A model generated the notes under the pieces. It was not told where the DNA came from. It saw only the letters and a list, made by a program, of their open reading frames with translations, and did no database searches. Positions 18,001-63,704 of a DNA stretch of 64,000 nucleotides are shown here, piece after piece. Source of the DNA: Liolophura sinensis (taxonomy: Eukaryota > Mollusca > Polyplacophora > Chitonida > Chitonidae); the NCBI RefSeq assembly GCF_032854445.1, contig NC_088302.1:41668191-41732190 (forward strand), in the 5' to 3' direction. The number at the start of each line of letters is the position of its first letter. The first letter of the stretch is position 1. Position numbers and translations under genes: made by a program.

Positions 18001-21000
18001 TGCCTCATGTCCGCTGTCTGTGTCAGAGCCGGGGCCATGTAGCTCCTCCTCAACGAAGTCAGCTGACAGTAAACTGACGACCAAGTACCTCATCTTTGTG
18101 ACAGGAGAGTTTGCCGTGGCCCTGCATCAGATTGGGATCAAGGTGATGACTGTTAATGAGGCGGGACACTGCACAAATAGGGCTGGGCATGGAGCCGGCC
18201 ACTCCTGTCAGAACAGTCAGCCCGGCAACGGACATGGACATATTGTGGTCAATGTCCGGAACAATGATATTGAAATGCGGGACCGTCAGCCCGACAAAAC
18301 CGATTTCTTGTTGGATTTACATGGACATGTGACAGGAATGTGTTTATCTAGTGATAGTAGGTGAGTGCATCTAGCTATGAAAGCTTTTCTTTTCTTTTGG
18401 CAATCTTTATCTCTACATGTACTTAGAGACAGATTAGTGCATAATTGACACAAATGTGATTTTGAAACTGACAAATTACAATTAACAAAATTAAGAAGAA
18501 ACATGAAGGCAAAATGATTAATGCATGTTCAGCTTTGGCAATGTATGTATTTGGCAGCATTTCTTCCAGCTGTTTAATGTAAACCAAGATATATGTCATA
18601 CACGGAAACTAACCTAAATTTTCACCCTGGGACTCGGAAAGTGTATTTCAAGATTCATTGCATTGACTGCGGTTGTTACTGACTGAGCGCCTCGGGAGAG
18701 CAACAAGGGTGGTCAGGAGATTACACTGACAGTTCAAGAATGTAGTAAACAAGCTCATGCTTCACTGAGCAGTCATTCTACGCTCCTGCCAACAACAGTT
18801 CATGTTTTCCTCAGTTTTAATGATAATGATTTTAGTACATGCACTTTGCAACAGGTTGATTGTTTTATTATCGTTATTTGTGATAAATGGGAATTTGGGA
18901 GAAAACTGTGGAGATAAAGCATGGCTACCCAGTACCTTTACGCATAGTATACAAAGCTGTAGCAAAATTGAGCATACCACGAATCAATACTTTCTTGCAA
19001 ATTGGGTCTACCAGCAGACAAGATGATGTGAAATTGTGACCAAAGCAACACCTACATGGTGCGTTTGCACCACTGCACAGGACTTTAATCACAGAAATTG
19101 AAATTTCTATGTGAACTTTTTGTTATATTTTTACTGGTGAAAGGAAAAACAATAATCTTATCTATCAATGGCAAAACTTGAATCAGGTCTGGGCAAAACT
19201 GTATACAGGAAATCATAAAACATTTTGTGTATAAAGCCAGTGATGGTGTTGTGCGAACTTCTTATGTGATAACAACTCCAACAAATCCTATCTCCTGATA
19301 TGCCGGGCTCATACACAGTACTACTGAAAAGCTGTAAAAGTAAATCATCATAGTTTCTGGAAACCTTGAGTGGAGTATGTTTTTTGTTCTCAAATAAAAT
19401 CGCAGGAAAAGGAACTCTTCTATAATAGGAAGACAGTTCCGACTGTAAAGAAACAAAATGTGCATGTAGACTGACATACTAAATTGAAATTACATTGACA
19501 AAGAATAACAGATATTTCTCATTAAAATTCGTTTTTATCTGAAATACAGTTTTATACATATTCGTTGAATAATGAGGACTCTTAGCGGACAAGCGTTCAC
19601 CAGGTAACGGTGTGAGGTGACTTCCATGTAGGCCTGATCTGAATAATCAGTTAGTCTGCAGTGTACATTGTGCATGTACATTCCTGTACAGAAAGCATGG
19701 CATGGGCATGCTTTCTGACAGTGTGTGGAATTTAAAGGTTGGTAATAGACATGGCTTGTCTCAATACTTTCTTTGATTTCATTCACGGGTATATATAAAG
19801 ATGTACATGTAGGCTTACTAGTTGGGAGACCTGCACACCTCACTGTCAGTGACTGTAAGTGCCATGCAGGGTAATGAAACAGGAGGGGGCTAATCGCTCT
19901 CTTCTGTCATCTTGCTGCCAACTCAGATCATGCAAAAGTTAACGGCAGTAACTCACGTGCAAAACTTTAGGTCATTTGCCGTAAATATGATATATATAAA
20001 TTATTTATAGCAAAATGAACGGAAAAATGTTACAAAATTTAGTTGTGATAGTGCAAACAAGATGTTTGGCAGTTGCATCGTATCAGAGGGATGCATTTGG
20101 AAATCTGGTAAAAGCACTGTGTCAGTTGTCAGTTGTCACACAATATCATCAGTGGATGAGTTTGCAAGGCAGAAATACAAAAAAAATGAGATTGATGAGT
20201 CAAATGCTGATAATGTTGTTGTGCAAAGAGTTAGATGTAGCACTTGTAGATATTCTTGATTTTTAGTACGTGTACATGTCGTGTTTGTTAGTGTCACAGT
20301 TAGACAGTCATAAGATGTGGAATTTGAAATTTGTATGTTTATCAGTTTAGTTTGTATTATTTTCACCTGATTATATGTATTGAGAAATAGTTCTTTATTG
20401 TGTACCTGTGTGATTTCTGCAGGTACCTGTTTGTGAACTGTCGCCCCTGGGTAGGGAGGGATGTGGACCGCACTGACCCCTGGGCAACCCCTGACCTCTC
20501 CACCCACATCCAAATCCGTGTGATTGATCTGTACACCTTACAGGACCTGGGTGTTTATTACAGCGGTCACCTGGGCTGGTCTCCTGCCTTCAGGTGCTGC
20601 TTTGTCTTCTTGGATGTCAGTGAGGACTACGTAGCCAGGTATGTACACCTTACAGGACCTAGGTGTTTATTACAGCGGTCACCTGGGCTGGTCTCCTGCC
20701 TTCAGGTGCTGCTACTGTATGTCTTCTTGGATGTCAGTGAGGACTACGTAGCCAGATATGTACACCTTACAGGACCTGGGTGTTTATTACAGCGGTCACC
20801 TGGGCTGGTCTCCTGCCTTCAGGTGCTGCTTTGTCTTCTTGGATGTCAGTGAGGACTATGTAGCCAGGTATGTACACCTTACAGGACCTAGGTGTTTATT
20901 ACAGCGGTCACCTGGGCTGGTCTCCTGCCTTCAGGTGCTGCTACTGTATGTCTTCTTGGATGTCAGTGAGGACTACACGGCCAGGTATGTACACCTTACA

Positions 21001-23913
21001 GGGGATGGGTGTTTATTACAGCGGTCACCTGGGCTGGTCTCCTGCCTTCAGGTGCTGCTTTGTCTTCTTGGATGTCAGTGAGGACTATGTAGCCAGGTAT
21101 GTACACCTTACAGGACCTAGGTGTTTATTACAGCGGTCACCTGGGCTGGTCTCCTGCCTTCAGGTGCTGCTACTGTATGTCTTCTTGGATGTCAGTGAGG
21201 ACTACACGGCCAGGTATGTACACCTTACAGGGGATGGGTGTTTATTACAGCGGTCACCTGGGCTGGTCTCCTGCCTTCAGGTGCTGCTACTGTATGTCTT
21301 CTTGGATGTCAGTGAGGACTACATGGGCAGGTATGTACACCTTACAGGACCTAGGTGGTTATTACAGCGGTCACCTGGGCTGGTCTCCTGCCTTCAGGTG
21401 CTGCTTTGTCTTCTTGGATGTCAGTGAGGACTACGTAGCCAGGCATGTACACCTTACAGGGGATGGGTGTTTATTACAGCGGTCACCTGGGCTGGTCTCC
21501 TGCCTTCAGGTGCTGCTTTGTCTTCTTGGATGTCAGTGAGGACTACGTAGCCAGATATGTACACCTTACAGGACCTAGGCGTTTATTACAGCGGTCACCT
21601 GGGCTGGTCTCCTGCCTTCAGGTGCTGCTTTGTCTTCTTGGATGTCAGTGAGGACTACGTAGCCAGGTATGTACACCTTACAGGGGATGGGTGTTTATTA
21701 CAGCGGTCACCTGGGCTGGTCTCCTGCCTTCAGGTGCTGCTTTGTCTTCTTGGATGTCAGTGAGGACTACGTAGCCAGGTATGTACACCTTACAGGGGAT
21801 GGGTGTTTATTACAGCGGTCACCTGGGCTGGTCTCCTGCCTTCAGGTGCTGCTTTGTCTTCATAGATGTCAATGAGAACCATGTAGCCAGGTATAGAACT
21901 CGCGAAAGCCAGCTAGACTGGTAGAGGGACAAGAATGTGTAGCCTAGTTAGGGTTCGAAATTACCATTGATTTGTCAGATGTGTCTGGCAAAAAAATGAT
22001 CTTGTCTGTCTAAATTTATGTGCAGCACGGACAAGTGTCCGCTTGAATTTTATTTGTGAAAAAATGTCAAATTACTTCAAATCATCGCTTCATCAGAAAA
22101 TCGCATTTCTATAAAATGTACCAGACTTCGTGTACAAGACTTTCCTTGTTGCGGAAATAGATTACCCTGTTCCTGTGACTTTTTATTGAGTAAAAAGATG
22201 CAAGGCGCATATTGCGACGTGAAGTTCATGGGGACAGGAGTGCAACTCTAGGAATATGGTAGTTGTGGGCAGCGAAATGAAAAATATTGATCGCTCAAAA
22301 CAACCAGCCTCTTTAAATTTAGGTTTACCAAGCAATCGACTAATGAACCGACCCAAGAGACGAAGCTAATCCAACAACATCAGCCACTCGACAATATTTC
22401 AAGGAAGATTGGAAGCGATCTGTTGCACCACGTGTGAAAATTACTGTGACCACAAATAACTGCTCTGGTCAGTTATCAAAACAGACACATGTAAAAACTA
22501 AATACACAGTGCATTTAATCATATATCGGCCAACAGTTCTGTGCAGATAAATTTTGTCCTGTGCTCAAGAGGACAATTATCCTGCTGGCTTTACTTCTAA
22601 TTTCTATCCCTTCTAATTTCTAGTCATGCTTTAGTTTCCAATTTAGCGTACAAGTGCCACAGCTGAGACAGTGTATCTTATTTATATATACATATATATT
22701 GTTGAAGTATATTCAACCAAATCCAGTCCCCAGTTTCCTCCCACCATTATCAATATAGTATGAGTGAAAAATTCTTGAGTATGGCATAATTGAGTAAACA
22801 ACAATTAGACAAATAAATATATCCAAATCCAGCCTATTGTATCATATAAGACATTGAGAAATCCATTGTGTGGTTAACCTATAGTACCACATTAGGACAT
22901 TGTTAAGTCCACTACTGGTTCAAATTACTAAAAGTGTTGTTATCACTGGAGCTGATCAGTTCTTGACCAATCCTTGAAATCAAAAGGTTTGTCAGGCACT
23001 AAACAGAGGGCAGTATTTTTCTCCAGGCTCTCTGTTTTACAAGCCAGAATACGCTGTACAGGTGAAACATACTGTAATTCTTCAACCTTTTTGCATATTT
23101 GCAAGGTGTGTTTACAAGTATATTCTGAAGGTATTATTCTGTGAACACTGTTAAAAAGTCAAGTTAAAGACTGTCCAGTTAAAAATGTGTATAAATTGCC
23201 TAGAAAGCTCATCTTTCATATGCGAAAAGGTTGAGGAATTAGGGTTCTTGAGAATGTTACATCACTCAATTCCAGTCAAATAAATAAGTAGGATATTGCT
23301 TTATCAGCAGTGAAGTCGCCAGAGTTGTGTGAACTAAATACTTAAAATACTAAATTTATGTTGAGTGTTACATGAAATTAACACCAGGGCAGGCATACTG
23401 TACATGTGCATGCAACAGTTTGTCACACCTGTACATTTGTACCTTCCACATCCCAGGTCATTTATCATGACTTCCCAGCCACCATAGGTTTACACACCAG
23501 CACTTTCTCACCATCATTTAGACTGACATTTTATTTTGACGAAATTATCAATTGATGAAAGAGAAAAAGTACATTTAAAAATGAGACAGGCTGGATACAA
23601 AATCTATATGTGTATGCCCTTGACTGATACCTGTGTTACTGTTTCATGTGTCTCTTGTCCCTACAGTGGTAGCGAGGACACACGAGGGTACCTGTGGGAC
23701 CGTCATTACAGAGTCAACCTCATGCGCTTCCCCCACGGCCCGGGGGTTGTCAACTCTGTCGGCTTCAACCCCAAGGACCAGGAGTACCTTGTAACGGTCA
23801 GTGATGACCATACCATCAAAATCTGGCGCTCCAGACAAAAACAACGCAGCTTCCTAGAAAAGGTGCCGGCTGCTTCCAATCATACGGGTGCTAGCTGTGC
23901 TACAAGTAGTTGA
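15048..23913 (+). CDS. FBXW5: FBXW5, F-box/WD-repeat ubiquitin-ligase adaptor
   Basis: Substrate receptor for cullin-RING ubiquitin ligases (SCF; also DDB1-CUL4 in vertebrates). Six coding exons in consistent phase: 15048-15413, 16357-16537, 17041-17180, 17426-18360, 20423-20638 and 23667-23913. The predicted protein is 694 aa, against about 566 in vertebrates. The F-box is at residues 9-50 (WQELPDNLLLQIFSFLKASD). The first WD repeat follows (LHVSFSHNGEMFATTSKDAT). Exon 4 (about 311 codons) is mostly a Ser/Thr-rich linker and accounts for the extra length; it ends with KYLIFVTGE and DLHGHVTGMCLSSDSRY. Exon 5 ends FVFLDVSEDYVAS, and exon 6 carries DTRGYLWDRHY and SDDHTIKIWRS. The donor used after exon 5 is ambiguous, because the exon's 3' half and donor are repeated about 12 times; the first copy gives the correct frame. 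Confidence 0.93.
15414..16356 (+). other. FBXW5 intron 1
   Basis: GTATAG..ACAG intron of 943 bp. It holds one SINE-like element (about 16001-16255). No other features were seen. Confidence 0.8.
16001..16255 (+). mobile_element. SINE-like element of a second subfamily
   Basis: The tRNA-like head differs from the main SINE (tcctcaatggcttagtttgt; ggtttgaatccagc as B box). The 3' end is related to the main SINE (cctataaatgaaaatttctc, gagtacggcatccaatcaaa). It lies about 100 bp before the exon 2 acceptor of FBXW5. Confidence 0.6.
17245..17315 (+). mobile_element. SINE 3' fragment
   Basis: The tail end only of the main SINE (atataagtgaaatattctga ... ccaatcaaataaataaat), in FBXW5 intron 3. Confidence 0.6.
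18361..20422 (+). other. FBXW5 intron 4, no feature seen
   Basis: 2062-bp GTGAGT..GCAG intron. Short frames on both strands look random. No repeat of the window's families was recognised. Confidence 0.75.
20530..21893 (+). repeat. FBXW5 exon-edge minisatellite carrying splice donors (about 12 copies)
   Basis: Unit of 112 bp, or 117 bp where tactgtatgtc replaces ttgtc. It starts at tgtacaccttacagg inside exon 5, runs through the exon end and includes the donor CCAG|GTATGT. About 12 copies follow head to tail; 11 have nearly the same sequence, and sub-variants (cctgggtg, cctaggtg, ggatgggtg) are interspersed. The last copy is diverged at its 3' end (catagatgtcaatgagaacc) but keeps CCAG|GTAT. 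Read without splicing, each 112-bp unit shifts frame by one base and meets a stop (LLGCQ*), so the extra copies should be intronic. Confidence 0.95.
22725..22818 (+). mobile_element. SINE 3' fragment
   Basis: Recognisable tail half: cagtttcctcccaccattat, gtgaaaaattcttgagtatg, ending in aaataaatat. It lies in FBXW5 intron 5. Confidence 0.6.
23070..23245 (+). mobile_element. Small terminal-inverted-repeat element (MITE), variant core
   Basis: The ends tactgtaattcttcaacctt and aaggttgaggaattagggt are inverted copies over about 28 bp. They match the ends of the elements at 25367, 37057, 43302 and 63017. The middle differs from the other copies. Confidence 0.65.
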
Positions 23914-24722
23914 CAACTGGGAGCTTAGGCAGGCTACACAGTTGAACTTTAAAGACGCTCAAGATGAAATCTCACTTCTGATTTGTGCTCTTGCAAGCAA
24001 CTGATGTTTGTGTACGTTTAAACACAAATCTAAGGTATAAAAGGGGCTGCCAACAGCACTGTTAGACAAGAATCGCTGTGTTGTTGTCATTACTGGTAAA
24101 GTGGTATAATAGGCATAAAGCACAATGCTGAACCGTACATACGTATATATTGTGTACCTTATTTCAGTGCTAAGAATGAAACATTTCCCATGTATCAAGT
24201 GCTATTTGACATGCATAGATAGTAGAAATTGGTATGTACATGTGTAGGAGGCTGCAACTGTCTATCATGTGTTACTCTGATGATAGAGCAGATACCAGAG
24301 ACATTGTCTTGTAGGAATGCACATTTTTCACAAAGGATATACTTGTAAATGTTTATGTAGTTCGTAGACATAAAGTTTAGGCAATTTTTTTGTTAAAGAT
24401 ACACAAATACCTACAAAAGATCTGTATTCCACTTCACCTTTTATGAATTAGTGAATCAAACTCTGAATGGCAATTCTAATTTAAATGCATGTAGAGATGG
24501 TCAACCCACCGAAGAGAGAAGGAAACTTATGTTATTAAGGAAATGTCAAGAAACATATACATGTACATATGTATACTCTTCACAGGAGTTATGTTATCTC
24601 CAGGAATAAGTCCAAAGTGTAAATTACATTGTTGTATACTAGGGTATAACCTATATCTGGCTTTTTGCCCACTAGAAAATCTTAAAGTACTGTGTGTTTA
24701 AAAGTAAAATTGTGCTTTTTGT

Positions 24723-24728
24723 AATAAA
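24723..24728 (+). terminator. Candidate poly(A) signal for FBXW5
   Basis: AATAAA about 810 bp after the FBXW5 stop codon. A second AATAAA lies at 27356-27361. Which one is used cannot be told from sequence. Confidence 0.4.
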
Positions 24729-25366
24729 CTGTGGCCACTTTCACAAAGCAGCGTACCACATTTATTTACCGTACATTTGTCGTACGATATTTTGTACGTC
24801 ACTATTAACATACCTATACAGTATGTGTGATATTGTATAAGTAATACAAAACATCTTTGTGAAAGTGGCCCCTGAAGCTAAAGTGCTGGAACGTCCTTTG
24901 TTTTAGGTGTAATAGTAGCCTGTAATGCAAAAGCCGGATTTCCCACTCCCGTAAATATGTTTTTCTGGCCATGCTGGCAATTTATCCTTTCAATATCTTT
25001 CCTTGTTCAGGTATGTATGTCTGGAAGGTTTTGTGAAAATGTCTTGAAAATCGTCAGACACATAATGTGCCATGTGGAAGTATGTACAGGTAATTAGTGG
25101 TATGAAAAATTTACAGATGTTGACACTTTATCCTGTTGATAGAGAGGTGGTTAAGGTCACATATGGGGAGTAGTTAGCATTTTATGTCCACAACATGACA
25201 CTTTCTCCAGTGTTTCTATAGGCCTTGAAGATTATTTTCAGACGTGGAGGCACTTCAGATTTTACCTCTGGGGCTAAGTAGAGTTCAGTAATATTCAGCC
25301 TGTTCAACTATTTTTATCCTTCTGTATAGGTGATTGTAAGTCAGTTGCAGTGTTGGTATATACATA

Positions 25367-25522
25367 TACTGTAAATCTGCAAACTTTTCAAGTAAAAAAA
25401 GCACTTTCCCTCTGCGGAATTTTTGCCTACAGTTATTGTGAAAATGACTCTAAAATTATTTGTTTTTTTGTGTGATTAAAGATGCAAGCATTATAAAACC
25501 ACTAATTATTTGAATTAGGGTA
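25367..25522 (+). mobile_element. MITE copy
   Basis: Begins tactgtaaatctgcaaac and ends gaattagggta. The core contains gtgaaaatgactctaaaatt and gatgcaagc, shared with the copies at 43302-43525 and 37057-37270. It is probably shortened near its right end. Confidence 0.65.
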
Positions 25523-27765: not shown

Positions 27766-30004
27766 CCAGGACTCATCCATATAGGACCATGCAATCCAAT
27801 AACCTATAATTACTGGCGATGTAGTTTTTTTTTTCTTTTGTGCATGTATTTTGGACTTGTGTGTTTGTAATTAGGCTCAAGTTCTAAAATGCTGACACAT
27901 TTGCTTAAGCAACAAAATTTAGAAAGTTCGGAAACCAAACTCTGAACAAGAAAGAAAATGGCTCATGCTCAGAACCAATGAATGCCCTCATATGGTTAGG
28001 TCTTCCTCCAAGACCTCTTTTCAGGTTTAGTTTTGCATGTCTTTATTAGGTTGGCGTTCAATGCTAAGGAACATTTCACTATATATATGTCAGACCTATT
28101 GATGGAAAACAAGAGAGGAAAACGCTGCCAAGCAGCAAGTTTAACAAACCCACTCACAAATCCTCAGTGGATCCAAAGCCATTTACTTGAGTGGTATTAA
28201 CACATGACAGATAGTGAAGTGGAGATCTGAAAGACTGTAAAAACTATCAAGAATTCTTCTGCTGATTTTTTCTGGAGTGGAGGTAAATGTTCAAAATGTA
28301 CATGTAAGATGGGCTCAGCGAGCCATATTTCTGTATGATGGTGTGCAGGCAGCAGTTAAGCGACATCTGTTACATCCCGCTACTATAACGTCAACCATGC
28401 ACTGGGCTTTGTGTGGTCTAGAAGGTGAATCGGCTATGTCCAAAACTAAACTCCAGGGTGTCGGGAGAAACTGATACTAGTAAAACCATTAATTATAAAT
28501 CACTATATGTAAGGGTTTAACTGTGGTATTTGTTGTGTAACCAGATACCGCTGAACCTTGTTTCGCACCGAGTCAAATCCCGAGAATGCCCAGCATTCAA
28601 GTGGATTTGACAAATACCAATGTTAGGAATATGAAATGGTACGTGTAGGAAAAGTATAAAGAAATGGTAGAAAAGTATAAAGAAATGGCAATAAAGAAAT
28701 GGTCGGAAAGTATAAAAAAAGACTAAAGGAAAAATAAAGCCAAAATATGACTTTTTTTTTTTTGGTAGTTTCCCTCATAAACTACGTACATATTATCCCA
28801 CATCAGAGATGCATATTATTGTGCTGCTTCTACTTATTGGGACATGTGGTATGCACCTTTAGCCGATATACATGTAATTGTCACAGATACACTCTTTTAA
28901 TCACATGGTCAGTCCACCTAATGAACATAACAAATCTTTAATTTTTGAAAAGCCTGAGGGAAATGTAATTTTGGCTTTCTGTACTACTAGCTAAATATTT
29001 GCCCAAAAAATTAGATGAATGACAGCACTTAGAACCATTCTCATGAACACAGTGTATTTATGAATGTAAATAATTGTTCTGAGTTAGCAGAATGCATCAA
29101 AGGTTTAGTTTTGAAGTACACAGTTTCAACTCTGTCAGGAAATGCCAACTTCATTCACATAACCTATTCCATTGTTTCTGCATAATGATAATGCATTTAA
29201 CACTTTTCTCATTTGATCAAAACTTTTATTTTGGAATCAGAAGATTAAGTCGTAGCATGGTACCTGTAAAGCAATGCTCTAATGACCATACCATGAACAA
29301 GGTTTCTACACCTGGCAGGTTGAGTGACATGATGTGCACACAAAACCGTCTCTACCTGGCCATCAATGGTTATATCCAACTAAAACTAAGTTGTGCTCGG
29401 TTGACCATAGGTATATCATCAACATCTGCAGACAATACCGTGTAAATGGGGATATTTTTGTATAACAAATTCATCTCGTTTTGGACACAATGCTTGCAAG
29501 AACATACCTACAACAAAAATCCATAATACAATGAGGTGGTCAGACATGCCAACATAATTTCCTCTGAAATTAATTTTGAGCTGGAGTTAAAAAAAATTCT
29601 AAAAACAAAACATGCAGTAGATATGCAGTATTAAGAAGATGCCAAAATATGTTATAATAGTGGCAATAACAGTGTAAAAAAATGGGACAAAAGTCCAACA
29701 ACAAAAAAAGATGACAGAAATTAATCAATTGAATACAAATATAAACATTAAGTATCACAGCTGGAGACAAATAACTTTGGTAGGAGCATACAGAAACCAG
29801 CACTATTAATGACGTGTAAATCCTCTGGTACACACCATTCAGCCATTCAGTCAAATGTACTGCACATAAATAAGTTACCACGTGTAAATACCTCATATAA
29901 GGAAACAGTGCAGTATACAGTATTTTGAGTACAGTATTTTGCCTAAGGTTTGGTATGTAAAAATTACAAAAGAACATAAAGGCTTCAAAATGATAGTCCT
30001 ATTT

Positions 30005-30895
30005 AATCTTGTCAATGTGATAAGCCCTTCAGACCTGTGTCATACTGTCCTTTTTGATCATGTCAAGGTAACAAAGACTTCAGGCCTGTGCCACACAGTC
30101 CTTTTTGATCATGTCATGAGACAAGGCCTTCGGACCTGTGCCACACAGTCCTATTTAATAATGTCAATGTAACAAGGCCTTCAGACCTGTGCCATGCAGT
30201 CCTATTTAATCATGCCAATGTAACAAGGCTTTCACACCTGTGCCATGCAGTCCTATTTAATCATGCCAATGTAACAAGGCCTTCAGACCTGTGCCATGCA
30301 GTCCTATTTAATCATGCCAATGTAACAAGGCCTTCACACCTGTGCCATGCAGTCCTATTTAATCATGCCAATGTAACAAGGCCTTCAGACCTGTGCCACA
30401 CTGTCCTATTTAATCATGTAAATGTGATAAGACCTTCAGACCTGTGCCATACAGTCCTATTTAATCATGTCAATGTAACAAGGCCTTCAGACCTGTGCCA
30501 TACAGTCCTATTTAATCATGTCAATGTGGTAAGGCCTTCAGACCTGTGCCATACAGGGCTATTTCATCATGCCAATGTAACAAGGCCTTCAGACCTGTGC
30601 CACAGTCCTATTTAATAATGTCAATGTAACAAGGTCTTCAGACCTGTGCCACACTGTCCTATTTAATCATGTCAATGTGATAAGACCTTCAGACCTGTGC
30701 CATACAGTCCTATTTAATCATGCCATAATGTCAATGTAACAAGGTCTTCAGACCTGTGCCACACTGTCCTATTTAATCATGCCAACGTGGTAAGGCCTTC
30801 AGACCTGTGCCACACAGTCCTATTCAATGTAACAAGACCTTCAGATCTGTTCCATACAGTCCTATTCAATGTGACCAGGCCTTCTGATCTGTTGA
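30005..30895. repeat. Minisatellite, ~60-bp unit, about 15 copies
   Basis: The unit runs caatgtaacaaggccttcag, acctgtgccatgcagtccta, tttaatcatgc. It is downstream of the KIAA0825 stop codon. On that gene's strand every unit reads ATTAAA, a known variant poly(A) hexamer. Units near the right end lose the tttaatcatg segment. Confidence 0.9.
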
Positions 30896-31329
30896 GATCT
30901 TATTCCTATGCCTTCATGTCATTATCTTGCAGAGACATTAAGCAAATGTTCACACTGGCAAAGCTCCCACAACAAAGTCTAATAACTAAAAAGCTTGCAT
31001 CTCACAAGATCTATATGCCAAGGCTAAATACCTTGAAAATATAAAAAAAAATCCAACACTTGTACAGGTCACTCTCATGACACAAATAATTTAACTTTCA
31101 CAACAAATGTGAGCATATAAATCCTTACACTCATCTGACAGCAGATGGCTGTGATCCAGGGTTCCAAATTAAGTACCATACATTTCTTTACCTCAAGTGT
31201 GAGTGACAAAATAAATATCCGTATAAACAGTATAAAATCACAATAAAAACGCATATTAATGATGCTGATGTATGCATCAGTTACAGTTAGTAAATGCTCT
31301 GCAACTGCACTGTCATGAATATCCTGGGG

Positions 31330-31730
31330 TCTCTGTGACAGGACAGTGGTGGGAACAGGGAACTTGGTGGGGCCAGGGAACATGGTGACAACAGAGGGAT
31401 GGTGGGAACAGGAAACCTGGTGGAAACAGGGAGGTGGTGGGAACAGGGAACATGGTGGGGATAGCGAACACGCTGGGATCAGGAAGGGGGTGAGAACATG
31501 GAACATGGTGACAACAGAGGGATGGTGGGAACAGGAAACCTGGTGGAAACAGGGAGGTGGTGGGAACAGGGAACATGGTGGGGATAGCGAACACGCTGGG
31601 ATCAGGAAGGGGGTGAGAACATGGAACATGGTGACAACAGAGGGATGGTGGGAACAGGAAACCTGGTGGAAACAGGGAGGTGGTGGGAACAAGGCGGTGG
31701 AACAGGAAGCAAAGGAGGTGAGAACCATGA
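31330..31730. repeat. GA-rich minisatellite, ~123-bp higher-order unit, about 3 copies
   Basis: The higher-order unit contains ggaaacctggtggaaacagg, gaggtggtgggaacagggaa and catggtggggatagcgaaca. It is itself built from 15-20-bp steps of ggtgggaacagggaa type. The long minus-strand frame over it (His/Pro/Cys-rich repeats) is a by-product of the repeat. It lies 240-640 bp after the KIAA0825 stop codon, probably in its 3' UTR or just beyond. Confidence 0.85.
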
Positions 31731-31969
31731 GATTATGGGAATATGGAGCGTGGTGCGGAACACACAGGTAGGGGGAACAGGAACAAGGAGGAAACAAGGT
31801 TGGAAAAGGGAGGTGGTGGGAATGTGGTAGGAACATTGGGGTGTTATATCAACTTGCTGTACCACATCAACCATTTTCCTCCTGAAGAAAATCTTAACTT
31901 TGACCTCTATTTCTCCTTCATATCTTCATTTCATCCTTGTAAAACTTTCTCCTCCCCATAACAACACAT

Positions 31970-34900
31970 CTATCTCATCTCCATGTCATCCTTGCCAAAC
32001 TTCCTCCTGAGTGCCATCACAGCCTTCTGCTCATTCCCCTCCACGTATGCTCCCTCCTGCATCTCATGACGACTGAAGAGGAGAGTGTGGAAGCCTACCT
32101 CACTAAGTCCAAGATCAGTTTGCAGGAGCTTGTGCCAGTCAAATGGGAAATCCATGATGGCCGACTGCGAGGAATGTAAGAAGCATACAGAGAATACATA
32201 CCTGTGCATGTTCTATCTCATGGTGAAAATAGCCTTTTACACAAAATATTATGTCTGGTATGAGATCTTAAAACATACATGAAACGACTAGCTTTTACTT
32301 CTTAATCTGCTGTATGGGATGTGTCCTAAAAGAAAAAACAAAAAAGTTTCTTATCTTTCTTCTTGGTGCGTAAAAATAGTTTTAGAGTACAGTTCTAAAG
32401 GGTCAATGAAGAAATTAAATAGCCAGTAGTTTTGACGTCAACGGTAATAGCTGACCTAGGAATTATGTGGTGAGAACAACCTGCATTAAGGAGGAAGAGG
32501 GAGTAGGGGTGAGCCAAACTGTTCAATGTTGATGTCATTCCCACTTATGGAATCCAAAAACATGCATGAAACAGACTAGTAATTAAAGGTTAAAATATAG
32601 CTCACAAATGAAACTACCTTTGACAACAACTCTGGCACAGGTATGAAACTAGAGCCATACAAGATGAAGTATGAAATTTTACCCCATGAAGACAGATGGA
32701 ACTAAACAAATATCAAAATGTGCCCAAAACATGAAGTATGAAACTGTACATAAACAAAAAGAAGCATGAATCTGTACACAAACCTGAAGAAGTACATGTA
32801 TGAAACTGTACCCAAATGTGAAGTATGAAACTGTACACATACACAAAGAAGGATAAAACTATACACAAACATGAAAAAGGATAAAACTGTACACAAACAT
32901 GAAGTATAAAATCACATCCAAACATGAAGATGTATGAAACTGTGCACAAATATGAAGATATATGAAACTGTTCACAAACGTGAATATGTATGAAACTGTG
33001 CACAAACATGAAGAATTATGAAACTGTACACAACCATGAAGAAGTATGAAACTGTACACAACCATGAAGAAATATGAAACTGTACCCAAACAGGAAGACA
33101 TGAAACTGTACACATACATGAAGCTGTATGTGAAGAAGTACATATATGATTTTTTTTTTTTTTTTTTTTTGATTGGTGTTTTACGCCGTACTCAAGAATA
33201 TTTCACTTATACGACGGCGGCCAGCATTATGGTGGGTGGAAACCGGGTACAGCCCGGGGAAAACCCACGACCATCCGCAGGTTGCTGGCAGATCTACATA
33301 TATGAAACTCACATGGTTGATCTGCCAATTACCAATCCTGTTGAAGCTGTGTATTGGGTTGAAGCCGGCCTGGGTTTTAGGCTCAGTACAGGGGCTGAAG
33401 GCAGGGGTGGGGATGCTGTTTGCTTGAGGGAAGGGAGGCTGGATGTCCAGTTGTCTGTCCAGCCACTCACGATTGTTAACCAGCAGGCTGTGGATTTTTT
33501 CCATGTGTTCCTGACCTTTAATTAAAAGTGGGTGAGAATTTAGATAAGGTACATGTAAGTAACAAACAAACAGGTCACATGGTACAAAATGTAGCATAGC
33601 ATGCAGTACAAATTACAATACATGTAGCTATGAACATGCAAAGTAACAGTTACATGTGAATGAACATGTAGCTTTGAAATCAGTCAAATTTTGAGTGGAG
33701 CTGGAAAAGTCTGGCAACAGAGGGATCGGAACACATGGTGTTTCTTCCTGGGATTTAGGTCACAGAGTAACTGTATACACAACCTGATATGGGGATAATT
33801 CATGCTGACTGCCAGTGTGTGCTTACCAGGAGTTGTGGTGAGGATTTATGGTGACTGAATGCTTACCATGAGGTGTGGTGAGGATTTATGGTGACTGAAT
33901 GCTTACCATGAGGTGTGGTGAGGATTTATGGTGACTGAATGCTTACCATGAGGTGTGGTGAGGATTTATGGTGACTGTGTGCTTACCATGAGGTGTAGTA
34001 GGATTTATGGTGGCTGTATGCTTACCATGAGGTGTGGTGAGGATTTATGGTGACTGAATGCTTACCATGAGGTGTGGTGAGGATTTATGGTGACTGTGTG
34101 CTTACCATGAGGTGTGGTGAGGATTCATGATGGCTGTGTGCTTACCATGAGGTGTGGTGAGGATTTATGGTGACAGAATGCTTACCATGAGGTGTGGTGA
34201 GGATTTATCATGACTGTATGCTTACCATGAGGTCTGGTGAGGATTTATAGTGGCTGTACATGTATGCTTACAATGAGATGTGGTGAGGATTTATGGTGAC
34301 TGTATGCTTACCATGAGGTCTGGTGAGGATTTATGGTGACTGTATGCTTACCATGAGGTCTGGTGAGGATTTATAGTGGCTGTGTGCTTACAATGATATG
34401 TGGTGAGGATTTATGGTGGCTGTATGCTTACCATGAGGTCTGGTGAGGATTTATGGTGACTGTATGCTTACCATGAGGTCTGGTGAGGATTTATAGTGGC
34501 TGTGTGCTTACAATGATATGTGGTGAGGATTTATGGTGACTGTATGCTTACCATGAGGTCTGGTGAGGATTTATGGTGACTGTATGCTTACCATGAGGTC
34601 TGGTGAGGATTTATAGTGGCTGTGTGCTTACAATGATATGTGGTGAGGATTTATGGTGGCTGTATGCTTACCATGAGGCCTGGTGAGGATTTATGGTGGC
34701 TGTGTGCTTACCATGGAGTGTGGTGAGTATTTACGGTGACTGTATGCTTACCACGAGGTGTGGTGAGGATTTATGGTGGCTGTGTGCTTACCATGAGGTG
34801 TGGTGAGGATTTATCATGACTGTATGCTTACCATGGCGTCTGGTGAGAATTTATGGTGGCTGTACATGTATGCTTACAACGAGATGTGGTGAGGATTTAT

Positions 34901-37900
34901 GGTGACTGTATGCTTACCATGAGGTCTGGTGAGGATTTATGGTGGCTGTGTGCTTACCATGAGGTGTGGTGAGGATTTATGGTGACTGTATGCTTACCAT
35001 GAGACCTGGTGAGGAGTCATGATGACTGCATGCTTACCATGAGGTCTGGTGAGGATTTATGGTGGCTGTATGCTTACCATGAGGTCTGGTGAGGATTTAT
35101 GGTGGCTGTACACTTACCATGAGGTCTGGTGAGGATTTATGGTGACTGTATGATTACCATGAGGTCAGGTAAGGATTTATGGTGACTGTATGTTTACCAT
35201 GAGGTGTGGTAGGATTTATGGTGGTTGTATGCTTACCATGAGGTGTGGTGAGGATTTATGGTGGCTTGTGCTTACCATGAGGTGTGGTGAGGATTTATGG
35301 TGGCTGTGTGCTTACCATGAGGTGTGGTGAGGATTTATGGTGACTGTATGCTTACCATGAGGCCTGGTGAGGAGTCATGATGACTGTATGCTTACCTTGA
35401 GGTGTGGTGAGGATTCATAATGGCTGTATGCTTACCATGAGGTGTGGTGAGGATTTATGGTGGCTGTGTGCTTACCATGAGGCGTGGTGAGAATATCTGT
35501 GGCTGAGGACAGGAACACCTGGTCAGCAAACTCCTGAGCAGAGCCATCCAGCATTGTGCCTTCTGATGGCTCAAACATTCTGAAACATGTACATAATGGT
35601 CACATTGCCAGTACAGATCATATGGTAAGCTATGCATCAAATTGATGTACCCCGGTTCATTGCTATTGGACAAACTTTCAGAAATTCAATTCTTCTGTAA
35701 AAATTACACACTACAATTGACCAATTACCATGAAAAACAAGGAAAATTTCAAATGCTTTTCATAGAAATTCCAATAGCCTCAACAAATATGACTCTGATA
35801 TAGTGCATGTTTTTGACCAACAGATAGGACTCTTATATAGTGCATGTTTCTGACCAACAAATAGGACTCTTATATAGTGCATGTTTTTGACAAACAAATA
35901 GGACTCTGATATAATGCATGTTTTTGACAAACAAATAGGACTCTGATATAGTGCATGTTTTTGACCAACTAAAGTTACGCTTTGGTTAAAAAGGAAAGTT
36001 ACCTCATCTGCACAGGTTATTAATGATTCCTGTGAAGTTCATAATCATCTCTACCTCAAAAAAACAATTTAGTCTTCAAAGTTTGTTGAATTATGTTTCC
36101 AAGCTGCACCTAAAGTTCTCATTTACGTTGGCACACGAAAAATTTCAGAGACTCACTCGCTGTGTAAGAAATTAACCATGGTTTCTATTCTGGTGCTCAG
36201 CCACTCCTTGTTGTGTTTCTTGAATGCCCCTGCAGGGCGTGGGGTGCCCATGGAGCTCTTGGTGGAGGTTGAGGTAAGAGTGTTGTACACACTATCAGCC
36301 ACGGCTATCAGAGTGTCCTGGGTGGCGGGCCGGAGTGACACCCCTGTCACAGACTCCACATACCCTGGGTTACTCAGTCTGTGACGCAGACACCCGGCAA
36401 TCACCTGTCACAAGTATCAATGAATATACACGTGCGTACTCAGTATTAAGGACATCTCAGTATTATGATTCACAATATTTATTTTATTAATATAATGTTA
36501 GTTGCTTTGCATGGATTCATGATCATTTAACCAGTTAGGTTCATGCCAAAGAAGGTAGAATGCAGGAATTGTACTGAAATGCGCAGCCAGAATTTAGTCA
36601 ATGTTACATGCACATTTCATTTAATATCATACATGTATTTAGTCTATAAATATTCCCAATTTCTGCTATTATTTAAATATACACGTATGTCATCAAACCT
36701 CCACATGTGCTGCCTGAAGACAGGAAAGGTGATAAGCATGTGATACATGTGTCACAAATACATACCAAATTACATGTACATGACTTGTTAGTTATATTTT
36801 TCTTTCAAGAAAAGATTCCTCAGCAAATAATAAATGGGCCCAGTTGTTCAAAACTGGTTTAAGACTTAGGGTACCAGATTTAACTATAAGCCAAGTCTTT
36901 AGTTTTGTACTGAGCCTCAAAAAAATTGTGTACCAATATATTAAATATGCACTAAAACTGCTGCTGTTGTACTTTGGAGAACTGCATTTTCTGCTGAGTT
37001 TAATCTCCTGTGATCAAACAGCTATAAAAACAGGTCACTTTCAGGACAAACCACATTCCCTAATACCCTTTTCAACCACCACTGGGACAAATTTTTGGGA
37101 ACATTCTGAGAGAACTATGGGGTGTAGAGAAATAATCTGCAGATTTTTATGAAGCCTGCATATTTAGTGACACAAATAAATCATTTTTGGAGTTATTTTC
37201 ATAATAATTGTATGCATAAATTCTAATGCAAAAAGTGCTTAGAGCTCAAAAAGGTTAAAGATTTACAGTACTCATACTCACCTGTAGCCCCATGCTGTCA
37301 TGTGACAGTTTGATCTTCTTGTGATTGGCCGATTCCTGGAGCATTCTGAAGAGAACGTAGACAGGGTAGGGCAGAAGCTCAATACAGCTACAGAGCTGGC
37401 TCACTAGTTCACGCAGCGCCCACTCCAACAGCTCTTTGTCACCTACATCAAGGGGAAAAAAACACAGAAAACTCTCCTTATTGATGAGAGACTGGCAATT
37501 TATTTATCTCGTTTATCTGACTGAGATTTACATGTAAATGGTGAACAAGTGGTGTACATTGTATGTGTGAAGCAAACCTAACAAATCCTGGAGGAAATAC
37601 CTAGCTGGACTTTGTCAGCTTTCCGACAACCTATTTGTTTTATAGAAGAAGAAAATTTAAATATCAAACAAATACCATTGAAAAGAGTATGCACTTCCTG
37701 GCAGGTGCATGCCATAAAAAAAATTCTAATATGTACCTGTAATATGTAATATAATTTAGCTGATAAATTATAAATAAAGTCAGCGCCAAAATCCGCTGTG
37801 GGCAACTCCATTTTGCCTAAGAACTAATCCTGAAGTCTTCTGTGTTAGGAGGAGAATTGCCGTCGGACACCGCCAAAGTGAAGTTCGTACATTTCCAGTA

Positions 37901-49900: not shown

Positions 49901-52900
49901 TCATGTCAGGGCTGGGACTGGCCTTCAGCACACCTGTATAAGGTGTTAAACAGCAACAATAATCAGCTTTGTTGTACAAAGAGAAATCCTTACACATCAG
50001 GTAAACCAGCTATACATAAACCTCATATTTTTATGAAGACAATGGACAATGAGTCAGACTTTTTAAGAGCATTTCAGTATTTGTCTAATAAGACTTTAAT
50101 GCAGTACTCAAGATTTTCCATTAGTGTTGCAGGTATCAGGTTATCTGCACAGATACTGCAGTGGGCAGAGTTAACCACCACCCTGGGCAAGATACTCAAC
50201 AAAACTCCCAACTTAAAGCCACAGCTGAGCCAGCAAAAAGTTGGATTTAAGTTATTAATCACTTGTTGATTTCAAATATAAAAAAGTCAGTCACACATTC
50301 TATTGGATGGTGAGATGCAAAGATAAATAGAGAAAGAATCTTTCAATGTAAAAGACCTTCCTTAAAAAAATACACAACCTAGGATACATGTTCTACTTAA
50401 TGGTAAAATTTTCTTGATGCAAACCAATAGATTATACAGATTCTGTTAAATGGCTGGATAGAAAGACTAATAAAGGCATGTTTGCCTTCCAATGTAGGTA
50501 CATGTAGGAAAAATCCTCACCCCTGATGCTGCCTCTGGACCTAGATTTCTTGCTGTTGACCCCACCCACTTCCCAGCTCATGGTGCCATGCAGCGTCTCC
50601 ATGTGACGATCAATGTGCAGAAAGGCCTCCACAACCTTGATGAGGACTCGCAGGAGGTGAAGGGGCAGGGTGGGTTTCGGGGTCCCCCGGTGGGGTAGCT
50701 GCTCCACAGAGAGGATGGACATGCTGTCCAGGCTCTTTGTCTTGCCCCGGACTACCAAGTGGGTCGGAGATCCCTGCAGGCCCAGCTCACTCTGCGACTG
50801 CGGCATCCATTTACTTCCCTTTTTGGCACTACAAGCCATCTCATCCTGGATCTCATCGATCAAGGCGGACATTTCATCGCCAAATTTGTCTAGGTATATG
50901 TCGTGGAGGGCATGGAGCGTGGTGACTGCCCTGCGGAACACGCCCGTGATGAACAGGGTGTAGTCCTGGTTCATCAGTGTAATGATCATGTCTGTCAGTT
51001 CCTCACAGTTATTACCGGCCTCTACGATGTCAACATCATCGCCTCCTCCCTCGCTCAACAGAGTCGCAAAACACACCCCAAGCTGCTGGGCACGGACCAA
51101 CCGGTATTTCTGCCAGACGTCCTCAGCAGGGAAAAGCGAACACAAAGCCTGAACATACTCCAACCGTTTCTTCGCACTGATGTCTATTGCGGGATAGTCC
51201 TTGTTGTATGACAGCTTAGACAAGCGGTCTTGGAAGTACTTTCTGAGGCGGAGGGTGATTTTGTCCCAGAGTTGTGAGACTGCCAGCTCCCCTGTATCTG
51301 TCACAGTGTGTAAGGATACCATTGAATCCTCAATGTTTTGTCTGGTTGAGGAGCGTGACGGCAGAGATACACCTGTGTGCTCTGAGAAGGAGAGAAGTTC
51401 TTGGAGCACAATTTCTTCACACCCAGGGCTCTCTTCCATTGCATGCAGCTAAACAGAGAAGTTAAACACCCCCTAATAATATAATTCCGTAAGACATAAG
51501 TAGTGTTGAAAACACTGTACATGCAATTTTATTTATACTGCATGTTATTACTGGCAAATAGTGTAGTTTCACACACTAAAAAGTCAATTTACTGTCAAAT
51601 TAATCAAACACTGCTACTTTTGAAAAGAAAATAATATACTGTCTTCAGCAGTATCTTAGTAAGGCTTTTGGTTGTGGCAACAGTGGCATTTTATCTAAAA
51701 GAGCTAGCAAGAGCCTTGTCTTTTATTGTTGTCGTATCTGTAATCTTAATGCACAAAATATGACATTATTCTATTCTCTCTAGCGCCTCTCCAGTGCTGT
51801 ATCTGTAATCTCAATGCACAAAATATGACATTATTCTATTCTCTCTAGCGCCTTTCCAGTGCTGTATCTGTAATCTTAATGCACAAAATATGACATTATT
51901 CTATTCTCTCTAGCGCCTTGGTGACAATAAGCTGTTGACAGCACTCTGTTTGTGCAGTCTTACGTTCACTGAAGGTCACTTCCACCTAAATGATGCAACA
52001 CTTAAAGTCAGCACGCCTCAGTGATATGCGGGGAAAATCATCAGTAGCTTGCCAAAAGTGCTTCATATAAAAACTAGTTTCCTCTCTAGTTTCCTCCACC
52101 CAGATAATTACTGACCATCACTGTATAAGTAGCAGACTCATGTATATGGCATTAAGCAATAAAGTAAAATAAAATAAAATAAAATCATATAATAAATATA
52201 ATATAATATAATAATATAATATAATAATAAACATAAATAAAAGTATAGCATGTACCACATGCACTATTATCTGTAACAAAAATTCTCCTTACAACATGGC
52301 TGAGAAATTTCATCACATCATCCAAGTCTGGGTCATAGCAGGTTGTCTTCTCCAAGGTATGGTGATCTGCCAAGTACTGTAAAGCATCCCTGGGCGTGGA
52401 GAATGACTTCCCTCCGCTCAGTCTGTTTGACTGCTTCATAATGTCCGACAGACAGCTATCCAGCCTGAAATAACCAGAATATCAATTTTACCTGTAGTCA
52501 ATATACACATGAAACCAACGTGCACAAAGTATACTGTATACATTGTAAATGTTTTAAATCAGTAATCAGTATTATACCAGGTAACACTTTGGCGGCATGG
52601 AAGACATGTATGTATGTACACGAACCTAATGATTTCTTGATAACATGGTCTTGTTACAGTATTTGTAGCTACACGCAGATGTACAGTATTTGAGTTACGT
52701 CATTAGGACAACACAGTGATGTCCCAGTTCAAAATGACACTGCCACTTTATGGCAAAGTAGGGTTACTTGCCTATCTGATAAAATCAAATAAGATCAAAG
52801 TACTGGTAGACCATCATTATTTTTGCAATACTGGGAAACCATGTACATTATTTATATGATCGGTCTAATCCTTTTTCGTTACTTTTATGTATGCTTCACA

Positions 52901-56095: not shown

Positions 56096-56098
<3 letters not shown>

Positions 56099-56504
56099 TG
56101 TGGTTAGATCCGACATAGAGGTACTCGTGTTCTGTAAAATACAAAACATTTTTTTTTCATTGGAGCCAAATACAGAGGCACGGTACAAGGGTCTCACTTA
56201 TGTATCATTGACTTCCAAACTATGACAGGAGGCCAGTGCACCAAAAAGAGGAGATTTGACAAAGTTTAACCCAAATTTCTGGTTACAGAATATGAAACTA
56301 AAGTGAAATGAACCAATAAATATTTACCAATATTGTTCCAGTTTTGCTCTTAGATACCGGTATTGTTCTTTCTTCCCCCAGGAATGCTGTGAAAAGACCT
56401 GTCATCTTACAAGGTAGAAATGTGAAAAGATGTCCATCATATCATGGTGCTATGAGTATTTTCACAAAAACAACTATGAAGGATTTGGAAACAAGACAAC
56501 CTGA

Positions 56505-59500: not shown

Positions 59501-62500
59501 GACCCTTTCATTCAGATTTTGGGAAGATACATTCATAATAAATCTGACTTTGCTAAGGAAAAATGATGCAAAGTCACAATATTTTTCTTCAAACTATGAC
59601 TTTCCCAAGGCGGTTTTCTTGCCAGCTGACCCTGTCAAGTTACTGCAGTATCCTGCCCAACATGTACATTGTGACATAGGTAGCCGTTCTCAGTTCTTTA
59701 CTCATAAATGTGTGCTTCAAAATGAATCAGTTTAACACTTAAACCCGCAAAGTCCAATTCATTGCATCGATATCTGTCTATCCACTGTAAGAACCACACT
59801 GACAATCGAGATCTAATAGGTTTTTTGACATGATAGCTAATTATCACGTGACACTTTCAGCGCTAGTGATTGGCCAAGATCACAAGGGCTTCTACAACAT
59901 GGCTACTCGGAGTGAATTGTCCGTCAGTGCCATATCCCCAATGCTAAATTTCATCTTGTTGGCTTTCAAAACTTTACAGAACTTTTTACATATTTTTCTG
60001 TGGTAATTGTGTCCTGTATCATTTTTTCGGTGTATATATAGTGCCAGACATTATGTTCACCTTAATTAAACTGTTGTAAACCAGTCCAGTGTTCTATCAT
60101 TGGTGGAGAGGTGATAGGCTTTCCGAATCTGAACATTCTGGTGCCAGTACAGAATAAAAATCTGTTTGAGCTCATTGAGAGTTGCACGTGTTACAGATAA
60201 GAAGCTTTGTTCTAAATACTTAATAGCACTCAAGTTATCACTAGTTGCTTTGAGGCTCATTGTCGTCTTACACATGCATTTATAAATGTACAAGTATGGC
60301 AGGCCTTGGTTCATATGTTTGTCAAAGTAGGGGATTGATCTTCATCTTTCATCTACAGCCGTGTAATATCCCTATAATTATGTCACATATTGTGGGTTTG
60401 TTTTGTAGTATTTGTGTTCTACATTACTGAGTTGAGATACATCTATTCTTTCTAGTTTTGACACCTTAATTACCTTAGTGATGGTGTTGTGTTTCTCTGT
60501 AGGTAGGCGTGGTAAAGCAGACGGAGACAGCTGCACTAAAGGCAGCTGGGGAAAACAGGGGAGCGCCCTTCACAAGGGAGCTAACTGCCCTCTACACAAA
60601 ATCAACATTGATTGGTGAAGATATCCTTTTGACATGTTCAGAGAGAACAGCATGCTTTCTTTCATTTTATGTGGTTGTAGAAAATATTCACTTAATATTC
60701 ATAAAGGTTTTTAGTTTCTTATTAAAAGTACGCCTTACACATACAGTTTAGAGACAGTATATAAATTTACCTACATATATTTCATAGTGCTCAGCTTATC
60801 AATTCATAAATGTGAGACCATGAAGGAGAAAAAATGGAAGACAATAAATTATTGAAAATAGAAGTTGTTTGTACATGTAAAGTTCTGTCCTCAGATCTTC
60901 AAAATGTGTAACATGTACATGTAGTGGTTGAGCCTCAGCCTGGACTATATAAAGCCCCATTAGTCTTGTATTATGACAAGACTGGTGTAAATGGCTTCTG
61001 ACACTTCTAATACACTTTTGAACAACTGGCCTGTTGTTAATCACTGAACTTTAACTGTGTCACATGTGGACCCGTTGTCTGGACAAACTGTAGGAACTTG
61101 CCTTGGTGATGGGGCTAGCAGCAGACCAAATGCTCATTTGATGTGTGTATTTGAGAACCTCCCAACCACATCTTTATGTAGTCCGTCCAAACCACAAACC
61201 ATTGCTATCATGGTAAGTTTTATTCATGTACAGAGATATCAATATACAGGTAATCCTGTAAAGGAAAAAATAGCGCTCTTCAGATTTTCAGACAAGAAAA
61301 ACTGGGATTGATCAAATTTTTTTGTGTTTAGCAAGTTTATTTTCCATAAGACACATATTTCAATTGTTCTGTCAATTTGTTTATTTGATTGGTGTTTTAC
61401 ACCGTACTCAAGAATATTTCGCTTATCCGACAATGACCAGCATTATGGGGTTTGTCTGTTAAAGCATTACACACATCTGTGTGAATTTCTGTTTAATATT
61501 ATAATTAATCTAACTTTATTGTGTGTTAAAAAGATGTCTTTAGGTGCTATTTTATGATCGGAAATATTTGAAGTTATTTTAATCCTGTAATGAATTTCAA
61601 GCAAATATCATAAACTTGGGAATACTTTTCACCCAGTATGTCATAGTATGTGTATACTGTCTCTTTGATATGCTGCAATATTACTGAAGTGACCTTGAGA
61701 CGTAATCATTCATTCAAAGTATACTGCATAACAGCGTGTTCACAGAAATATTGAAGAAATTTTATGACCTGAAACATTTATTTGTGAATCCCTTGGATAG
61801 TTTTGCACACGTCATGCGATGGTGTAATCTGCTCTATAACTTCCCTCCATCAGTCCGTACAGCCGAGTACTGGTGAGTTGGTGTACGACTGTTTTGAGGA
61901 CGGGGTGACGCGCAGCCAGCTGGAGACACGTATCCTCCATCTGGAGCCTGTGGAGCTGTTGTTACCTCAGACCCTAACAGAGAGGACAGAGTCCCTCATC
62001 ACAGACATCGTGTCTCTCAGGTACGCTCAATCTCTCTGATCACCCCCAGACCCTGACACAGACGTGTCTCCCAAGTACATTCAATTTCTCTGATCACCCT
62101 CAGACCCTGACACAGAGGACAGTCGCTCATCACAGACGTGTCTTTCAGGTACACTCAATCTGTCTGATCACCCCCAGATCCAAACAGAGAGGACAGAATC
62201 CCTAATCACAGAGATCGTGTCTCTCAGGTACACTGAATCTGTCTGATCACCCTCAGAACCTGACACAGAGGACAGAATCCCTCATCACAGACATTGTGTC
62301 TCTCAGGTACACTCAATCTGTCTGATCACCCTCAGATCCTGACACAGAGGACAGAGTCCCTCATCACAGACGTGTCTCTCAGGTACACTGAATCTGTCTG
62401 ATCACCCTCAGAACCTGACACAGAGGACAGAGTCCCTCATCACATACATCAGGTCTCTCAGGTACACTGAATCTGTCTGATCACCCTCAGACCCTGACGC

Positions 62501-63704
62501 AGAGGACAAGAGTCCCTCATCACAGACGTGTCTCTCAGGTACACTGAATCTGTCTGATCACCCCCAGACCCTGACACAGAAGACAGAATCCCTCTTGACT
62601 GACATCGTGACTCTGTTAGGTACACTAAGAACACCCTCAGACCCTGACCCAGAGGACAGTCATCACATATATCGTGTCTCTCAGGTACACTCAATCTGTC
62701 CAATCACCCCCAGACCCTGACACAGAGGACAGAATCCCTCACCTGAGACATCCTGTTTCTCAGGTACACTCAATCTGTCTGTCTTACATTTATAAGCCAT
62801 ACTCTGACTAGAACAGAGTTCATCTTTATGGAGATCATTCCTCTCAAGCACCTGAAATCTGATTCTGATCATGTGTTATCTCCCAGTTGCTGAGAACAGA
62901 AATAGATTTTTCAATTGCTCTTCATTGTTGGAGAGGCTTAATGCTTGAAAACTCAGTGCAATGTAAATTTTAATCTTGTGACATGTACGAGATGGTGCTT
63001 ATCCAATGGTAGCATTACCATAAATCTTCAACAAAGAGTCTACAGCACTTTTTTGAGTGGAATTTATGCATTTAATTATTAAAATGAGGCTAAAAATGAA
63101 TCATTTTTGTCAGTAAAGATAGTTCTCTGAGAATGTTTCAAAAAGGTTGAAGAATTAGGGTATGTCCAAAGCACAAGTCTTTCTGCTGACAGCAATACAG
63201 ATGATGATCGCATAAGAATGGAGAGATTAGAGGACTCTGTGTTTGAACATGGCAAAGCTTTTGAAACAATAATGGACTTCTACTCCGAGAATGAAAAAGG
63301 TTTGTGGAATATACTTGGATGTTGGATAGTATGTACTCAATTTCCTTTTCGCTGTGAATGATGAAAATCTCTTGGTGCATTGTATATGTATAAATGATAA
63401 GACATGTGTAAATGCCAGCTCTTGTAAATTGTAAAGTTCATTTCAATATCAGTCCAGAGTTTGGAATTAACCTCTATGGGTTTCAGAATAATATAGTATT
63501 CTTAAATGCCTGCTGCGAAGGCTTGATGGTTTTCTCAGCTGTTTTTATCTATTTCTGATGTCACTGTGATGTTATCTGTTCTGTGTAGGCAGTGAGGTCC
63601 TTCAGGGTGTGATAACTGTACCCTGACAAACCCTCAGCTGTCTTGCTGCCCTCTGACATCACATACCTGGGGGAATTTGAGTTCTGTATCTTCTGTTGAT
63701 GAAG
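56505..63704 (+). CDS. MSH3: MSH3 mismatch-repair protein, N-terminal part, frame-disrupted; 3' end beyond window
   Basis: MutS homologue; with MSH2 it forms MutS-beta, which binds insertion/deletion loops. Exons seen: 56505-56657 (N-terminal PIP-box-like QIRISKFF), 57324-57939 (linker then [21 protein letters not shown]), 58364-58483, 60503-60620 ([30 protein letters not shown]), 61064-61212, 61854-62020 ([25 protein letters not shown]), 63193-63299 ([16 protein letters not shown]) and 63589-63704. Four middle exons are intact with matching phases. The exon at 57324 has an in-frame stop at 57534 and several frame changes. Near its end an extra T (57920-57923) and an extra G (57929-57931) break the conserved FFGEDAE. 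The exon at 58364 has extra bases at 58394-58395 and about 58420, giving TGA at 58415. The exon at 63589 hits TGA at 63624. So the gene is identifiable, but the sequence as given does not encode an intact protein. The ATPase domain lies off the right edge. Confidence 0.88.
57017..57192 (-). mobile_element. SINE, 5'-truncated
   Basis: (TTTA)n tail, gattggtggtttacgctgta, cgatggcggccagcattatg and tgcaggttgctgagagacct. It ends before the tRNA head. It lies in MSH3 intron 1, about 130 bp before the next exon. Confidence 0.8.
58484..60502 (+). other. MSH3 intron between exons at 58364 and 60503
   Basis: GTAACA..GTAG intron of 2019 bp. It includes a CpG-richer block (about 58820-59460) with an 84-codon frame at 59180-59434. 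Otherwise nothing was recognised. Confidence 0.7.
59180..59434 (+). other. Unassigned 84-codon frame inside an MSH3 intron
   Basis: Open from ATG to stop, and richer in CpG than its surroundings. It contains a Cys cluster ([10 protein letters not shown]) and basic residues (MRKCKQRRL). A CRE-like tgacgtca sits at 59213, inside the frame near its 5' end. I do not recognise the product. It may be an exon of an inserted element or a chance frame. There is no splice evidence linking it to MSH3. Confidence 0.25.
60621..61063 (+). other. U12-type AT-AC intron of MSH3
   Basis: The donor is GAAG|ATATCCTTTT, a perfect U12-type 5' site. The acceptor is CTTTAACTGTGTCAC|ATGTGG, with a U12-like branch sequence ctttaact about 9 bases before the AC end. 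Joining gives GED|VDPL in frame, matching the MSH3 family at this point. Mouse Rep-3 (MSH3) has a classic AT-AC intron, and this appears to be the same one. Confidence 0.93.
61377..61450 (-). mobile_element. SINE 3' fragment
   Basis: ttatttgattggtgttttac, accgtactcaagaatatttc and gaccagcattatggg: the tail half only. It lies in the MSH3 intron after the exon at 61064. Confidence 0.75.
61959..62790 (+). repeat. MSH3 exon-edge minisatellite carrying both splice sites (about 11 copies)
   Basis: The unit is about 75-80 bp (some shorter). It has an exon-derived part (accctgacacagaggacaga, gtccctcatcacagacatcg, tgtctctcag), then gtacactcaatctgtctgat caccctcag. The first copy is the real 3' end of the exon at 61854-62020, with donor CTCAG|GTACGC. 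Most later copies keep CTCAG|GTACAC. Because the intronic part of each unit ends in cctcag, every unit also offers an acceptor-like AG. Confidence 0.95.
63017..63162 (+). mobile_element. MITE copy beside an MSH3 splice acceptor
   Basis: Ends are taccataaatcttcaaca and aaggttgaagaattagggta. The core gtggaatttatgcatttaat and aaatgaggctaaaaatgaat matches the other copies. It stops 30 bp before the exon that begins at 63193. Confidence 0.7.

Follow-up and report, generated by a model that had tools for sequence, protein, structure and literature searches.

The window, by which we mean the whole 64,000-nucleotide stretch of Liolophura sinensis DNA that was analysed, contains three genes in which a tandem array sits on the 3′ edge of an exon. 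As the initial annotation had claimed, and as TRF and the sequence bear out for all three arrays, the first unit in each case consists of the terminal (3′) part of an open exon plus its donor. All three arrays lie at donors and none at acceptors. The first of them belongs to an FBXW5-like gene with the following features.

15042-15416, upstream of the array exon: F-box-like exon (Pfam match)
20423..20638, plus strand: FBXW5-like exon whose last ~109 nt are array unit 1 (putative start from TTTCTGCAG|G)
20638/20639, plus strand: FBXW5 donor CCAG|GTATGT (sequence)
20530..21894, plus strand: exon-donor array, 12 units of 112/117 bp (TRF and sequence)
23667..23910, ends approximate, plus strand: next FBXW5-like exon, WD40, (S)GSEDTRGYLWDRHY... 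(putative start from CCCTACAG|T)

The FBXW5 identity is well supported by the F-box exon upstream and by WD40 residues that continue past the intron, the array exon reading ...CCFVFLDVSEDYVA|S and the WD40 exon GSEDTRGYLWDRHY after the intron (Pfam match and frame). We take the gene to resemble human FBXW5 itself. The unit junction (20638-20650) yields the donor GTATGT, and the last copy (21885-21900) continues into GTATAG; in this single case a weak donor may have been improved by duplication.

The second gene lies on the opposite strand.

35476..35579, minus strand: exon with open frame MFEPSEGTMLDGSAQEFADQVFLSSATDILTTPH
35476/35475, minus strand: donor CATG|GTAAGC (sequence)
33816..35491, minus strand: exon-donor array, 41.7 units of 40 bp (TRF and sequence)

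This gene had been called KIAA0825. Its frame does run across the intron (TTPH|GQEHMEK), but a profile search found no Pfam match for it, and the name, unconfirmed, thus stays that of the initial annotation. The array covers ~85% of its 1.96-kb intron (35475-33516). In both the FBXW5 and the second-gene arrays, copy junctions read by eye gave 1-2 bp of shared sequence at the breakpoint. More large minisatellites (51, 88-123, 28 and 23 bp) were seen at 29995-33130 and 48802-49653, in or near the same gene, so that the region is array-rich generally, beyond exon ends. Two other arrays in the window are a 65-bp repeat of 2.9 copies at 51734-51919, whose unit contains an acceptor-like CTCTCTAG|CG, and a 21-bp repeat of 8.7 copies at 46756-46938, whose period is a multiple of 3 and which is open on the minus strand (repeats such as KQYDHLP).

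The third array lies in an MSH3 gene.

61854..62020, plus strand: MSH3 exon, part of MutS_II (PF05188, E 4.6e-8; putative start from CCATCAG|T)
62020/62021, plus strand: MSH3 donor CTCAG|GTACGC (sequence)
61965..62781, plus strand: exon-donor array, about 10 units of 75-80 bp (sequence and TRF)
63131..63358, plus strand: open frame with the next MSH3 exon (29-residue stretch), exact start not fixed

The gene has MutS_I and MutS_II matches in Pfam, and an alignment with human MSH3 (3thw, E 4e-19) runs through the end of the array exon into the next exon, for which a start had to be assumed. On these matches the MSH3 identity can be regarded as secure. According to the same alignment, the exon copy of the unit still codes conserved protein. 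TRF reported 9.5 units of ~79 bp at 62009-62781, and homology of the first unit extends back to ~61965. The donor had earlier been given as CTCAG|GTACAC, which is the form of the intronic copies, whereas unit 1 has CTCAG|GTACGC.

Homology thus confirms the exons bearing unit 1 in MSH3 and FBXW5, whereas for the second gene the reading frame alone does so. The arrays measure 0.8-1.7 kb each and take up much of their host introns, and in each gene the copies are confined to a single intron whose flanking exons continue into one another. The claim that most copies keep a usable donor has to be corrected for FBXW5, where 3 of the 11 intronic copies are without GT; it is retained in the other 8/11, in 41/41 for the second gene and in 8/8 of those aligned for MSH3.

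A dispersed element or satellite as the source of the FBXW5 and MSH3 units was considered and rejected. Searches covering the whole assembly (609,464,459 bases in 632 contigs) gave 12 matches for the FBXW5 unit and 11 for the MSH3 unit, all within their own arrays. The presence of the unit elsewhere, as expected of a dispersed family, was therefore not found for either; each unit was copied locally from the gene in which it lies and belongs to no mobile family. The mitochondrial contig of the same assembly is open under the invertebrate code (AAA = Lys, AGR = Ser) and has the gene order nad2-cox1-cox2-atp6. On a 108.7-kb scaffold (contig C99) cox1 is found seven times, mostly at ~15.5-kb steps, which looks like a head-to-tail concatemer of the mitochondrial genome and probably came about in assembly.

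The frequency of such arrays was estimated from 139 exons of three gene families, chosen by Pfam matches alone (kinesin, ABC_membrane, kinase), whatever their repeats, and taken with their flanks (230 bp for the ABC exons). The kinase loci, having mainly long exons, contributed few usable edges. Exon ends were scored for similarity to the intron next to them, and the introns of other exons served as the null. The maximum null score in 1660 comparisons was 16. It was exceeded on the donor side in nine comparisons and on the acceptor side in four, and accepted screen cases scored 17.5-67.5, which is above what chance gives. Final counts consist of the screen cases after each had been read, plus additions found by TRF.

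Donor-spanning arrays (screen and TRF): loci L135, L053, L066, L101, L082, L153, L132, L084, L118
Acceptor-spanning arrays (screen and TRF): loci L163, L040, L075, L090, L164, of which L090 and L164 are the weakest

Of about 133 sampled donors, 9 (6.8%, CI 3.1-12.5%) had an array spanning them, as did 5 of 133 acceptors (3.8%, CI 1.2-8.6%), with no significant difference between the two (Fisher p 0.41). Both edges are therefore affected, genome-wide, and in the sample approximately one exon edge in twenty is spanned by an array. The recurrence in unrelated genes is real and does not depend on unit sequence, as the initial annotation had proposed. Extrapolated from these three gene families, ~4-7% of junctions would mean thousands of exon-edge arrays in the genome. 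Five candidates were rejected as donor arrays: L064, which passed the automatic screen although its array is intron-only and begins ~55 nt beyond the real donor; three further intron-only arrays close to a donor (L076, L036 and L129); and L092, in which part of the exon interior has been copied.

The sampled introns also carry arrays of their own, with starts at 2.2e-4 per bp on the donor side and 2.6e-4 on the acceptor side, or about one intron-only array per 4 kb. For units of about 60 bp and under a TRF-only rule, this density gave an expectation of 1.8 donor-spanning arrays, compared to 7 observed (Poisson p 0.0025, or 0.0066 with background uncertainty). Arrays favour regions of higher GC content, which exon edges also have; the GC-corrected expectation was 2.4 (p 0.012). 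Acceptors showed no significant excess under the same rule (4 seen, 2.1 expected). In the whole genome, CAGGTAAG forms 1454 triplets spaced by gaps of 30-60 bp, compared to 377 for its reversal; single occurrences number 30,216 and 14,643, respectively, so that per site the triplets are 1.87 times commoner than those of the reversed control. The corresponding ratio for TTTTCAGG was 1.53. Since the matches counted overlap, these octamer counts serve as support only. Together, the density test and the octamer counts favour a modest excess of tandem arrays at donors, not a strong effect. Additionally, donor units are mostly exonic: in 11 of 12 arrays, and in 8 of the 9 from the unbiased set, intron sequence makes up less than half of the unit. 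They end 3 to about 43 nt past the donor, with breakpoints read by eye and the pattern noticed post hoc.

The proposal that repeat birth is focused on donors is therefore upheld as to the excess, and has to be qualified in that acceptors are also affected. Donor junctions might be mutational hotspots, at which replication, transcription or R-loop effects start tandem duplications more often. The donor excess, the spaced CAGGTAAG triplets and the short, minor intron part of the units all speak for this, but the numbers are small and come from three gene families, acceptors are struck at a frequency not significantly different, the octamer counts are dominated by large arrays, and composition effects may be left over after correction. 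We regard the hotspot explanation as a possibility on the unlikely side. Slightly more doubtful is its extension, in which 5′ splice-site junctions would be birth hotspots for tandem repeats in animals as distant as chitons and amphioxus, with founders ending a few to ~40 nt past the donor.

Selection for donor redundancy, also proposed initially, predicts arrays kept because of their spare donors, and the GT retained in every second-gene and every aligned MSH3 intronic copy would agree with it. When the intronic copies of eight arrays were pooled and donor columns compared with randomly shifted columns, divergence was 3.5% at -1 to +5 and 2.2% at GT, compared to 5.8% for shifted columns in both cases, with 18% and 19% of shifts as low, respectively. 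Copy edges add noise to this count where units end near GT. Conservation of the donor columns thus does not significantly exceed that of other positions in the unit (eight arrays, p 0.18-0.19), so that redundancy is unsupported, although a weak effect is possible. GT has moreover been lost from 3 of the 11 FBXW5 copies, and use of an inner donor would make the coding exon longer or put it out of frame, leaving this explanation very improbable. Little better can be said of the suggestion that the arrays show intron birth in progress, through tandem duplication of exon segments that contain AGGT, which we judge improbable. Gain of introns by tandem genomic duplication is an accepted process (PMC3443670) and mirages have already been proposed as such a route (PMC3087553), but every copy here lies within one existing intron whose two exons read on from one to the other, and none was seen to serve as both donor and acceptor. 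That the arrays are artefacts of assembly is most improbable of all. Tandem repeats commonly misassemble and coverage was only 14x, but HiFi reads of the chiton assembly average 8,347 bp (Liolophura japonica, PMC11068029), and arrays shorter than typical HiFi reads make a gross artefact unlikely. Copies within an array also differ from each other and the same anatomy occurs at many independent loci, although exact copy numbers could still be off.

Setting these alternatives against what was observed of the arrays (their anatomy, the local origin of their units, the background density in introns and the recurrence at either exon edge across the genome), we consider the arrays to be mirage-type minisatellites, in which a local duplication across the junction was tolerated and then amplified, with a modest excess at donors (probability roughly 0.8). 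The founder would be a tandem duplication of some 30-110 bp, short and local, that spanned an exon edge by chance; slippage during replication, or template switching, involving little microhomology, is its probable origin. The 5′-most donor, or the 3′-most acceptor, would be the original site and still give normal mRNA, the extra copies leaving with the intron; such a duplication would be tolerated because the original splice site remains. The array would then expand inside the intron like ordinary minisatellites, presumably growing by unequal exchange. Array formation is very frequent in this genome, so that many junctions are struck. The copies do behave like unselected repeats, as expected of mirage-type minisatellites, whereas the donor excess (7 versus 2.4) and the mostly exonic units (11/12) are not accounted for by a purely random founder position.

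Exon-edge arrays are natural experiments in splice-site choice, in which many near-identical sites compete. Up to 12 FBXW5 donors have nearly the same exon/intron context, so motif strength alone cannot explain the choice among them. The chiton arrays also allow the mirage route to intron gain to be tested across chiton species.

The initial annotation was aware of no description of such arrays recurring in neighbouring genes, but exon-boundary arrays are already known from amphioxus, with an intron-gain model attached (PMC3087553). Ebner et al. 2010 reported tandemly duplicated exon-intron boundaries in the globins BflGb6 and BflGb9 under the name "mirages", with both boundary types affected and normal mRNA obtained by RT-PCR from arrays of the same anatomy; that paper also cites further amphioxus genes with mirages, among them Adh3 (Canestro et al. 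2002, doi 10.1093/nar/gkf386, as cited in PMC3087553). No earlier report of exon-boundary arrays in molluscs was found in a literature search that covered mainly papers outside subscription. A 27-bp array in intron 3 of an abalone TSSK1-like gene (PMC6905558) is likewise a local intronic tandem array, but inclusion of the exon edge is not reported for it. Intron gain by tandem genomic duplication (PMC3443670) also involves a splice-site motif inside a duplicated gene segment; there, the duplicated exonic AGGT becomes donor and acceptor of a new intron, whereas the chiton duplications span a pre-existing donor and their copies lie inside that intron. Amphioxus mirages are much closer, being minisatellite-like duplications across either exon-intron boundary, of many units with AG/GT signals, with units of tens to about 160 bp that are unrelated in sequence between unrelated genes. 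Units spanning the boundary were found in both the window and the sample, 5′ and 3′ boundaries are both affected in the sample (9 donors, 5 acceptors), and many but not all copies carry AG/GT, as in the GT counts given above. Because these structural features agree, the window arrays can be filed, on their sequence, as probable mirages. The chiton arrays differ in occurring in a mollusc, in having more copies (up to about 42) and in having a frequency sampled genome-wide. Boundary arrays are a class known from amphioxus, and their occurrence in a chiton suggests that mirages are not peculiar to that animal.
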